From the NCBI GenBank assembly GCA_020725555.1, contig DYEU01000032.1, positions 124,001 to 188,000 on the forward strand: 64,000 nucleotides of DNA, given 5' to 3'. The notes below the pieces were generated by a model, which ran no database searches, was not told the origin of the DNA, and saw only the letters and a program-made list of their open reading frames with translations. Below, piece by piece: positions 11,283 to 64,000 of the stretch (positions within the stretch are counted from its first letter, which is position 1; every line of letters begins with the position of its first letter). Position numbers and translations under genes: made by a program. Origin of the DNA: Desulfatibacillum sp. (GTDB lineage: Bacteria; Desulfobacterota; Desulfobacteria; Desulfobacterales; SpSt-501).

Positions 11283-11406
11283 CGCCCGCACGGCCGGAGC
11301 GGTTGAAGGCGGGGAGCCGCTGCGGTATCTTTCGGCAAACGGCCGCCGGCGGACGCCCGCCGCCCGGTCAGGCGCCATCCCCGCCGGGGGATGGGAGGAG
11401 GACCCC

Positions 11407-11901
11407 ATGAGACGGACGTGCATCCCCTGGGCCGTAGCTGCGGGAGCGGCGGTTCTTTTGGCCTTCGGCGCCGCGCTGGCGCCCGCACAGGAGGACCCCG
11501 CCCGGAAAGGGTGGGGCCGGGAGGACCCCTACAACAAGCTCTACAACCCCCGGGAGATCGAGAAGTTCAAGGCGCGGGTCGTCCGGGTGTTCGAGACGGT
11601 GCCCATGCCGGGCATGTCGCCCGCCACCGCGCTCGAGGTGCGCGAAGGGAACCAGACCCTGGTCGTCCATCTCTGCCCGGTCTGGTTCGCCTCCCCCGGC
11701 CAGGTGGGCGTGCGGCCGGGGGATGCGGTTTCGATCCGGGGAGCCTGGGCCGAGATCGGCGGCAAGGATGTCTTTCTCGCCGCCAAGGTGAAGAAAGGCG
11801 ACACCTACGAGTTCAAGGCCCGCCTGACGCGGGACGGCACCCCCCTGTGGACGCTTACGCCCGAGGAACTCGCCCGCGAGCGAGCCAAGAGCGACGATTG
11901 A
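11407..11901 (+). CDS. Exported protein, possible OB-fold
   Basis: 164 residues with a signal peptide (MRRTCIPWAVAAGAAVLLAF, cleavage near ALAPAQ) and a beta-rich domain: FKARVVRVFETVPM, ALEVREGNQTLVVHLCP, VGVRPGDAVSIRGAW, KDVFLAAKVKKGD. The strand pattern and the VRPGDAVSIRG turn resemble small periplasmic OB-fold proteins, but I cannot name the family. ATG 11407 has GGGAGGAGG upstream, a strong ribosome-binding site. The long frame that continues upstream is a shadow of the preceding gene. Confidence 0.72.
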   Translation: MRRTCIPWAVAAGAAVLLAFGAALAPAQEDPARKGWGREDPYNKLYNPREIEKFKARVVRVFETVPMPGMSPATALEVREGNQTLVVHLCPVWFASPGQVGVRPGDAVSIRGAWAEIGGKDVFLAAKVKKGDTYEFKARLTRDGTPLWTLTPEELARERAKSDD

Positions 11902-11936
11902 GCCCCTCGCCGGCCGACGGAAGGACGCCCCCCGCG

Positions 11937-12485
11937 ATGACCCCCGCCGCTCCCCCGCCGCCCGTCATCTCCATCGTCGGGCGCTCCCGCTCGGGGAAGA
12001 CCACCCTGATCGAAAAGCTCATCCCGGAGCTCGTGCGCCGCGGCTACCGCATCGGCACGATCAAGCACACCCACCACGAGGTGCGCTCCGACCGCGAGGG
12101 CAAGGACTCCGCGCGACACCGCGCCGCGGGTGCGCATACGGTGGTGCTCGCCTCGGAGGGCGAGATCGCCCTTTTCCGCAACGCCGCCGCGCCCCGCCTG
12201 GAGCCGCTGCTGCGCTACTTCGACGACGTGGACCTGGTGATCACCGAAGGCTACAAGCGGGAAGCGCGGCCCAAGATCGAGGTCCTCCGCCGCGCCGTCG
12301 GGGAAAGCGAGCTCCTGTGCGCAAACGACCCCCTGCTCGTCGCCGTGGCCGCCGACGGGCCGGTCGCGGCGCCGGTGCCGGTGTTTTCCCTGGACGACGC
12401 CGCGGGCCTCGCCGGGTTCATCGTCGAGCGCTTTTTAGGCTCCCGCGCCGCCGACCGCACCCCGCCCGAGGACACCGCACGATGA
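11937..12485 (+). CDS. mobB: Molybdopterin-guanine dinucleotide biosynthesis adaptor MobB
   Basis: 182 residues. P-loop GRSRSGKTT near the N-terminus (about 16-24), then GTIKHTHHE and DLVITEGYKRE, the MobB signatures. MobB is a GTP-binding adaptor that assists MobA in forming molybdopterin guanine dinucleotide for formate dehydrogenases and related oxidoreductases. None of those enzymes lies in this window. The start at 11937 follows GGAAGGA. The final ATGA overlap with the downstream PAS/sigma-54 regulator is suggestive of regulation of molybdoenzymes, which is inference. Confidence 0.88.
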   Translation: MTPAAPPPPVISIVGRSRSGKTTLIEKLIPELVRRGYRIGTIKHTHHEVRSDREGKDSARHRAAGAHTVVLASEGEIALFRNAAAPRLEPLLRYFDDVDLVITEGYKREARPKIEVLRRAVGESELLCANDPLLVAVAADGPVAAPVPVFSLDDAAGLAGFIVERFLGSRAADRTPPEDTAR

Positions 12486-62049: not shown

Positions 62050-62344
62050 ACCCGAAACGGGCTGACCGCGACGGACCCTCGAGGCTCGAGGAGGGAGCTC
62101 TGAACCCGGAAACCCCGTCCCGCCCGTGACGGGAATCGTCGGCTGCCCCCCCCGGTCAGGCTGATGCCCCCCTTCCGTGAGTGAGGCTGCGCCCCCGCAA
62201 TCGTCGCACGCCTTGGCGGACAGGCGGATCCCTTTCTTTCCCCAGCCGGACCAGGGCCTGCCGGCGAAGGGGAAGAGGGGGCCCTTCGCCCCCCGCGGCA
62301 GGGCCGTTGATGTTTTCCCGTCTTTTCGCTACATAGAGGGCGTT
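62050..62344. other. Intergenic region upstream of the fluoride riboswitch (295 bp)
   Basis: No supported gene. CCTCGAG-G-CTCGAGG (near 62080-62095) is a short inverted repeat and a GC-rich hairpin (GGGGG...CCCCC) lies near 62276-62294, without a U-tract. The 3' end holds the promoter for the riboswitch RNA. Confidence 0.5.
62307..62335 (+). promoter_or_regulatory. Promoter of the fluoride riboswitch transcript
   Basis: TTGATG (62307-62312), an exactly 17-base spacer and TACATA (62330-62335). Predicted start at about 62342, only a few bases before the aptamer, as expected for a riboswitch at the 5' end of its RNA. Confidence 0.5.
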
Positions 62345-62400
62345 CGGGGATGGAGTCCCCCGCGAAACCGCCGCCCGCCCGGCGGCTGATGACTCCTGGC
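62345..62400 (+). promoter_or_regulatory. Fluoride riboswitch aptamer (crcB motif)
   Basis: All elements of the crcB/fluoride aptamer are present and superimpose on the Thermotoga petrophila RNA. Stem 1 is CGGGG (62345-62349) with CCCCG (62358-62362), closing an 8-base loop AUGGAGUC. AAAC (62365-62368) plus one base follow. Stem 2 is GCCGCC (62370-62375) with GGCGGC (62381-62386), then UGAUG (62387-62391). The long-range pseudoknot pairs GGAGU (62352-62356) with ACUCC (62392-62396), 5 perfect pairs. The only departure is UGGC where UAC is usual after the pseudoknot. The pseudoknot pair differs in sequence from known examples yet stays complementary, which is strong evidence. Confidence 0.9.
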
Positions 62401-62462
62401 AAAGAGGATCCCCCGCAGCCTGTTTCTTTCGCGAACGGCCTGTGCCGGAGAAGGATCCCATG
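62401..62462 (+). promoter_or_regulatory. Probable expression platform of the fluoride riboswitch
   Basis: CAGCC (62416-62420) can pair with GGCUG of the aptamer (62384-62388), destroying aptamer stem 2. It is directly followed by UGUUUCUUUC, so a ligand-free terminator is possible. Alternatively GGAUCC at 62406-62411 can pair with GGAUCC at 62453-62458, masking the AAGG before an ATG at 62460. Which switch operates is not decidable by eye. Confidence 0.4.
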
Positions 62463-62639
62463 CGCAGCCCGCCGCTTTTCCCGAACGCACCCGCTTCGCC
62501 TTCCCGCACAGCCCCGGGGCCTCCGCCTTTCCCGACCCCGCCCCCGCGCAAGCGGCGCAGCGCCCTGAAGGCCCTCGCTGCGAGAGGCCGCCGGGCCGCT
62601 CGTGCCGGCACACCCTCGAACCCGAAGGAGGAACCCGCC

Positions 62640-62918
62640 ATGCAGGAAACCCACGACGACGTCATCCGAGAAAAGAAGCTGCCGCGCGTCGGCGACGTGG
62701 TGAGAAGCCGCAGGCACGGCACCCTCTGGCGCGTAATCGAAAAGAAGGAGGTCTACCAGAGCACGGCCGACGGCACCCGGCTCGTGCCCGCCATCTACCT
62801 CTGTTTCTGGAAAATCGCCAAGGACCGCCCGCCGGGGTACGGCCAGATGCTGGGCTACGCCTACACCCTGCAGGACAACACCTTCGAGGCCAACTGGGAG
62901 CGGGTCAACAACGGTTGA
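62640..62918 (+). CDS. Unrecognised small protein downstream of the fluoride riboswitch
   Basis: 92 residues, soluble, rich in charged and aromatic residues: LPRVGDVVRSRRHGTLWRVIE, broken by its turn Gly, then YQSTADGTRLVPAIYLCFW and GYGQMLGYAYTLQDNTFEANW. A compact beta-barrel, perhaps SH3-like, is plausible. It is not CrcB/FluC, a CLC-F antiporter or any usual fluoride-switch client I know. ATG 62640 has AAGGAGG 8 bases upstream. An in-frame ATG at 62460, with GGAGAAGG upstream, would add 60 Pro/Arg/Ala-rich residues; that stretch has more A/T third positions and looks less coding. Confidence 0.75.
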   Translation: MQETHDDVIREKKLPRVGDVVRSRRHGTLWRVIEKKEVYQSTADGTRLVPAIYLCFWKIAKDRPPGYGQMLGYAYTLQDNTFEANWERVNNG

Positions 62919-63137: not shown

Positions 63138-63581
63138 TCACAGAGTCTTGCCCGTCGCGCGCGGCTCCTTGCGCGGCCCTGCCGCGGCGGCCGCCTTGCG
63201 CACCGCCGGGGCGGGGTGTCCTTGCAGAAGGGTCAGGGCCGCTTCCTTTTGGGGTCCGCCGGGAAGTTTCCGGAGCGCGGCCACGATCTCGCGGGCGAGA
63301 ACGATATCCGTCGGGTGCTCGAGGGCACAGCGGGCGAGGGGGACGGCGGCCTTGAGATCCCCCCGATTGCCCAGGCTGATGACCGCCGCCATCTGGACCT
63401 CGCGGATGGGGTGAGAGAGCGCATGGATGAGTCGCTCGCGGTAGTCATGGCCTGCGGTCCAGAGCGCCGCATCGCAGCCGCAAGCGGGGCAGGGGCCGGA
63501 TGGGGAGGGCCGTCGGGCAAAACAGGCCGGGCAGAAGAAGCGGACCATGCGGCGATCGACGTGCGGGGGCGGTGGCCCCAT
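63138..63581 (-). CDS. Zinc-ribbon protein with HEAT-like repeats
   Basis: 147 residues. The N-terminal double CxxC (FFCPACFARRPS, CPACGCDAAL) is followed by short helical repeats (HPIREVQMAAVISLGNRGD, DIVLAREIVAALRKLPGG, APAVRKAAAAAG). It resembles the larger zinc-ribbon/HEAT protein at 43818-44492 but in compact form. Function is unknown. It follows the dynamin-like gene by 10 bp on the same strand. The start at 63581 is not strongly supported; an in-frame ATG 11 codons later is possible. Confidence 0.7.
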   Translation of the reverse strand: MGPPPPHVDRRMVRFFCPACFARRPSPSGPCPACGCDAALWTAGHDYRERLIHALSHPIREVQMAAVISLGNRGDLKAAVPLARCALEHPTDIVLAREIVAALRKLPGGPQKEAALTLLQGHPAPAVRKAAAAAGPRKEPRATGKTL

Positions 63582-63591
63582 TCCGGCACGA

Positions 63592-64000
63592 TCACAGCGA
63601 CTCGGCCATCTGGCGGTATTCCGCCAAGCGGCTGCGGATCCGCTCGATGGCCGAGAGGCGCTCGTCGAGATGGGAGAGGGTCGCCGACACCTCGGTTTCG
63701 CTGCGGTCCTTCAGGGCGACCGCGCGCTGCAGGGCCTCGCGGATGGTGGAGAGGGTGAGATCGGCTTTCTCGTCGAGCGATTTCTGGAATTTGCGGGTGG
63801 TCTCCTCGATGCGGCGGACGAGATCGTAGCGGACCCGGCCGCAGTGCCGCTCGAAGATCTCCCGCGCCATCGCCTTGATCCGCCGCAGGATCAGGCCGCG
63901 GGTGACGAAAAGCGGCATCGCGGAGCGAAAGCCCAGGCGGATCAGCCCGAGCGCGTCGGGGTCGTCCTTGAGGAGGAAGTAGAAATCGCTGCGGTTGGTC
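63592..64000 (-). CDS. C-terminus of a dynamin-family GTPase-like protein (5' end outside window)
   Basis: 136 codons of an open frame that continues past the window end. The segment begins NRSDFYFLLKDDPDALG and LIRLGFRSAMPLFVTRGLIL, then long amphipathic helices with KFQKSLDEKADLTLSTIREA and heptad-like spacing. This matches the C-terminal helical stalk of bacterial dynamin-family proteins. The GTPase domain itself is not in view, so the identity is a judgement from the tail only. An internal ATG at 63918 is not the real start. Confidence 0.7.
   Translation of the reverse strand, partial: TNRSDFYFLLKDDPDALGLIRLGFRSAMPLFVTRGLILRRIKAMAREIFERHCGRVRYDLVRRIEETTRKFQKSLDEKADLTLSTIREALQRAVALKDRSETEVSATLSHLDERLSAIERIRSRLAEYRQMAESL

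Follow-up and report, generated by a model that had tools for sequence, protein, structure and literature searches.

The 64,000-nt stretch of DNA analyzed here (the window; G000:C30:124001-188000) contains a complete fluoride riboswitch whose client gene most likely encodes a 92-residue protein, and relatives of this protein form what, judging from their gene neighborhoods, is a recurring fluoride regulon across the Desulfobacterota. The first-pass annotation had ventured that the protein may be a new fluoride-response protein. This is now well supported, both by the repeated placement of the family behind aptamers and by a match to the Rfam model RF01734 above threshold; a role as accessory to an antiporter or a GTPase is an inference. 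The small protein is in our view a good candidate for a hitherto unknown protein of fluoride defence, and the gene family is very probably part of a true fluoride response. Accounts of fluoride defence usually center on export through FluC or CLC-F, with a few metabolic helpers added. Across the whole phylum considered here, an unnamed small family and dynamin-like GTPases are repeatedly found under a fluoride switch, and the riboswitch link gives a functional handle on a family that has no annotation.

The annotation had called a complete fluoride riboswitch and suggested the RF01734 covariance model as a check. Rfam cmscan gave a match at 62337-62405 (+) of 45.8 bits (E 1.7e-9; gathering threshold 34) that spans the whole model, positions 1-64 of 64, and is the sole Rfam match in the window; a genome-wide RF01734 search recovered the same aptamer. 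Model R1 matches it too, but this aptamer is part of the set from which R1 was built. The structural details also held: both stems, the AAAC and UGAUG joints and a covarying pseudoknot are present, the last with up to 6 bp rather than the 5 originally counted. In eight related aptamers from the same genome and its order pairing is complete in both pseudoknot and P1, compensatory changes occur in two of the six pseudoknot pairs and two of the four P1 pairs, and the set has a higher covariation score than any of 500 shuffles or any slid version. A chance aptamer is ruled out by the E-value and by four further RF01734 sites in the genome. A promoter had also been placed just 5' of the aptamer; since a consensus scan found no sigma-70 promoter upstream of the aptamer, this amounts to a weak resemblance only. 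As an RNA, this aptamer adds a new member to an established riboswitch class whose members are ON switches, and it looks functional, fluoride binding and the resulting change in expression being inferred.

Table 1. Features of the small-gene locus and its neighbors (window positions unless a contig or locus is named)
Feature	Position	Strand	Basis or remark
Fluoride riboswitch aptamer, full length	62337-62405	+	RF01734 cmscan
P1	62346-62349/62358-62361	+	Aptamer stem
Pseudoknot 5' strand GGAGUC, in P1 loop	62352-62357	+	Pairs with 62391-62396
P3	62370-62375/62381-62386	+	Aptamer stem
Pseudoknot 3' strand GACUCC	62391-62396	+	Covariation; CUCC (62393-62396) alternatively pairable with GGAG 62447-62450
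GGAG within possible Shine-Dalgarno GGAGAAGG for in-frame ATG 62460	62447-62450	+	Leader fold; hypothetical
Shine-Dalgarno AAGGAGG, 8 nt before ATG 62640	62625-62631	+	Sequence
Small SH3-like protein (P0001), 92 aa, riboswitch client	62640-62918	+	Translation; GC3 coding signature from here
HEAT-repeat protein with N-terminal cysteine-rich stretch	63138-63581	-	HEAT_2 E 1.9e-8; downstream of GTPase
Dynamin-like GTPase (591 aa), 3' part	63592-64000	-	Dynamin_N E 2e-28
Fluoride riboswitch of the GTPase	C30:189397-189461 (L006:5398-5462)	-	41.9 bits; directly before GTPase

Does the client protein have 92 residues or 152, both of which had been left possible? Codon-position GC is flat over 62460-62639 (0.72/0.78/0.78) and strongly coding in the core from 62640 (0.60/0.40/0.90), homologs from the same genus start aligning at MQETH (62640), and the AAGGAGG-N8-ATG arrangement at this start occurs once in the window against 0.08 expected by chance. 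These three observations favor the shorter form and speak against the longer one, so that the gene of the riboswitch is most likely the 92-residue frame and its leader runs for about 235 nt between the aptamer and ATG 62640.

The gene is single-copy in its genome. Its product was described in the annotation as unrecognized and as none of the usual fluoride clients, which agrees with the absence of any match in Pfam, NCBIfam or PDB sequences. Eighteen aligned members share the invariant residues P15, G18, W30, E34, E37, PAI50-52, W57, G66, G68, Y75, F82 and W86; members beyond this alignment were found by profile. An AlphaFold2 model from the 18-row alignment (pLDDT 89.7) predicts a short helix and a small beta barrel of SH3-like type, the fold of the CarD N-terminal domain, EF-P domain I, KOW and Tudor, but Foldseek gave no match under E 0.001 and there is no significant sequence match to such proteins. 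VIA-align against the PDB gave Z of about 5-6 and rmsd of 2.4-3.4 over 52-68 residues, a strength common for small barrels. Since the matches listed are tied small barrels, no function was drawn from them, and the modeled resemblance would show a common fold only. A phage or defence gene was rejected, as there were no relatives in viral contigs, no PADLOC match and no significant PHROGs match.

CPA antiporters of about 490 residues that occur in other families of the order carry the domain of the small protein as a C-terminal tail. In a class sample of 389 genomes RF01734 lies 1.26-1.35 kb upstream of the domain, just before the antiporter, in 15 of 45 fused genes (one further fused gene has a riboswitch 3.2 kb away with a GTPase between), and upstream of only two of 25 standalone genes, namely our own and one other. 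Among named loci from across the phylum, which were picked by protein similarity and not by riboswitch, an aptamer is directly upstream of 14 of 31 fused genes, within 450 nt upstream of 11 of 67 standalone genes (our own included) and within 4.5 kb of 26 of the 67. The link of standalone genes to riboswitches is thus much stronger in the named genomes than in the class sample. The search for such motifs upstream of homologs, proposed in the annotation as a further check, accordingly came out in its favor: ten other standalone genes are preceded on their own strand by an aptamer at a distance of 49-413 nt. Those at L053, L074, L086, L087, L088, L090 and L100 are above the Rfam threshold; for the aptamers of L057 and L064 the only support is model R1 (33-38 bits), and for that of L098 a weak R1 match (15.8 bits). 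At 13 loci the small gene is second after a GTPase gene (gap 14-213 nt), all behind a riboswitch, and on the L053 contig three riboswitches in a row precede a GTPase, a tailed antiporter and the small protein. At L087, L088 and L090 a hairpin takes in the pseudoknot 3' strand and leads into a long U-run, some 50 nt ahead of the small gene; as read from their sequences, these leaders are textbook transcriptional ON switches acting directly on the small-protein family. In the phylum sample RF01734 occurs in 36 of the 43 domain-bearing genomes where 16.7 would be expected (hypergeometric 2e-10, uncorrected for phylogeny).

The genome of the window has five RF01734 sites. Three of them lie within 5.5 kb at the window's end, one each ahead of the small gene, the dynamin-like GTPase and an antiporter of Kef type (Na_H_Exchanger E 1e-30). 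The annotation's statement that the small gene is the only one downstream is therefore right for the + strand but misses two more fluoride riboswitches no more than 5.5 kb past the window edge; the small gene is not isolated and belongs to a fluoride island. A relative from the same genus (G003) has this island too, with GTPase and antiporter 88% identical at the protein level and each with its riboswitch, and it keeps the HEAT-repeat gene beside the GTPase; it is without the small gene at the syntenic place.

No PF02537 (CrcB/FluC) match was found in the window's genome, whose single CLC has the sequence GREGP and not the GREGT/V that marks fluoride CLCs. This genome is rated 100% complete and has five fluoride riboswitches and no recognized fluoride exporter. 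The presence of five riboswitches without FluC or a recognizable CLC-F points to an unexplored, membrane-centered arm of fluoride tolerance, which could be tested directly in a cultured relative, Desulfoferrobacter suflitae DRH4, where (L048) a riboswitch is followed by an operon of GTPase and small protein. A search (run without a positive control) found no tailed-type CPA1 antiporter in the genome, so any partner of the small protein in trans would be the Kef-type antiporter or the GTPase.

Other genes around these sites deserve mention. Elsewhere in the genome (G000:C1; L007:4666-6180 and 11379-12293, both -) two further riboswitches precede apparently broken genes, an enolase fragment and a Kef antiporter fragment; two MutS-like ATPases are encoded beside them, and the whole may be a second fluoride island in decay. 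Next to the island in the window's contig (L006:10940-17974) are genes for an ArsR-type regulator, an ArsM-like methyltransferase, an ArsP-like permease and an ACR3-like protein, all named from sequence only; a ChrB_N protein is encoded inside the island and with these neighbors makes up a toxic-ion resistance cluster.

The phylogeny of the domain (100 rows, 97 columns, with many forks unresolved) complicates the picture. All standalone proteins but one fall in a single clade; the fluoride clade (29 rows, support 99/99) has 19 members behind riboswitches. Our protein is outside the fluoride clade and nests among copies from its own genus (100/96, plus inner supported branches) that have no RF01734 upstream in the available sequence and sit in other contexts; at L026-L033, for instance, they are flanked by sensor kinase/response regulator genes on one side and UspA genes on the other, which suggests a broader stress role. 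It follows that the family is not only about fluoride, and that our copy either gained its riboswitch separately or belongs to a group whose other members lost theirs. Could it then be a general stress protein of a UspA- and two-component-linked family, captured by a nearby fluoride aptamer and without a fluoride-specific role? The neighborhoods and nesting just described would fit, as would the 83.6% identity over 55 nt between the aptamer core and the Kef riboswitch of G003. Against this, the family recurs behind fluoride riboswitches in many places, eight changes between the states with and without riboswitch being needed even if only well-supported branches are counted, and the domain is also the fused tail of riboswitch-controlled antiporters; we think the capture of a general stress protein unlikely.

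The leader raises a different doubt, since the switch could be a relic, an intact aptamer with no working expression platform and a small gene expressed regardless of fluoride. Folding of the small gene's leader showed no clear terminator overlapping the pseudoknot strand, only a weak competing hairpin without a U-run, and its MFE folds are ambiguous. In the same genome, by contrast, the GTPase riboswitch has a 14-bp terminator hairpin over the pseudoknot strand followed by UUUUGUUU, and the Kef riboswitch also has a terminator. (Terminator-like matches at 62295, 5' of the aptamer, and at 62681 on the - strand are at chance level only.) The distance from aptamer to start and the lack of the small gene at the syntenic place in G003 also agree with a relic. 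However, the aptamer matches the entire family model, and the fold does contain one competing pairing, the only one found, between the CUCC of the pseudoknot and the downstream GGAG; this would hide GGAGAAGG before ATG 62460, and the GGAG may, hypothetically, compete for the pseudoknot strand. That pairing is also the basis for reviving the 152-residue form, which would start at ATG 62460 with a Pro/Arg-rich N-terminal extension and be under a translational switch in which the pseudoknot strand serves as anti-Shine-Dalgarno. The frame is indeed open from 62460 and GGAGAAGG lies 5 nt upstream, but the flat codon-position GC, the MQETH starts of the homologs and the far better Shine-Dalgarno before 62640 all oppose it. 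A translational switch for the longer form, an unusual platform and a relic are all possible for this leader; of the two rival readings that it allows we consider the relic quite improbable and the longer protein very improbable. Because of the riboswitch-free clade mates and the missing overlapping terminator, fluoride regulation of the copy in the window is inferred and not shown, and we hold it to be probable.

Our preferred reading is that the fluoride riboswitch drives a small cytosolic SH3-like protein of a recurring regulon that helps a GTPase or an antiporter, and as a whole we rate it somewhat above an even chance. It is established that HF enters the cell, dissociates, acidifies the cytosol and poisons enzymes (PMC11139923). 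On the proposed mechanism, HF would enter and dissociate, fluoride would bind the RNA, and more of the small protein would be made. The protein would then stand in for the antiporter's regulatory tail in detached form, serve the dynamin-like GTPase as an adaptor at the inner membrane, or do both, and its action would help to restore proton homeostasis and membrane integrity under fluoride stress. A domain that occurs both as part of antiporters and, in different species, as a free protein is likely to be regulatory or an adaptor, and joint induction of its free form and the GTPase would point to an inner-membrane action on antiporter, GTPase or both. There are no physical interaction data, and the accessory role itself is an inference that we put forward tentatively, at rather less than even. 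A bolder version, that the small protein, the GTPase and a CPA antiporter with or without tail make up one fluoride-induced membrane-protection module in which the small protein couples GTPase to antiporter, seems to us somewhat unlikely; if true, the module would protect cells without, or on top of, any fluoride exporter.

How do these elements compare with known systems? Like other RF01734 riboswitches, ours is complete in stems and pseudoknot and its sister sites in the genome have the classic hairpin or terminator over the pseudoknot strand; it differs in its leader and in having a client that is not among the published ones found. Na+/H+ antiporters are known riboswitch clients, the commonest published after exporters, and have been linked to HF acidification (PMC11139923, citing Baker 2012). 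In many Desulfobacterota such riboswitch-controlled antiporters carry the domain of the small protein as their C-terminal tail, but here the domain stands alone with its own riboswitch, and the genome's Kef-type antiporter has no tail. The client gene, having no Pfam match, encodes neither a FluC/CrcB nor a CLC-F exporter. The partner GTPase resembles bacterial dynamin-like proteins such as LeoA and DynA (LeoA model E 1.5e-23), from which it differs in being under fluoride riboswitches. We found no link between dynamins and fluoride riboswitches in the literature searched, and no published mention of the client family or its tie to the GTPase, the full client list of Baker 2012 being outside the comparison; within these sources both appear to be new.

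Reading of 83 riboswitch sites in the class sample, in which clients were assigned by BLAST to reference genes from these loci and counts are therefore approximate, puts the dynamin-like GTPase first with 21 sites, followed by CrcB (17, one site being counted as both), tailed antiporters (14, with three more antiporters lacking a visible tail) and Kef-type antiporters (8). Most of the remaining sites precede enolase, MutS, CLC or a formate-hydrogenlyase-like subunit, where CLC and the subunit were identified by reading the sequence. It is of note that at L086, L087, L088, L090, L098 and L100 a gene of about 593-615 aa follows the riboswitch-controlled small gene; in those scanned (L087, L088 and L100) it is formate-tetrahydrofolate ligase, maybe a fluoride client on the same transcript. 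Finally, fluoride riboswitches come in divergent pairs at L078, L086, L088, L090, L094 and L100, about 70-150 nt apart and driving genes on both strands, often an antiporter on one side and a GTPase or the small protein on the other.
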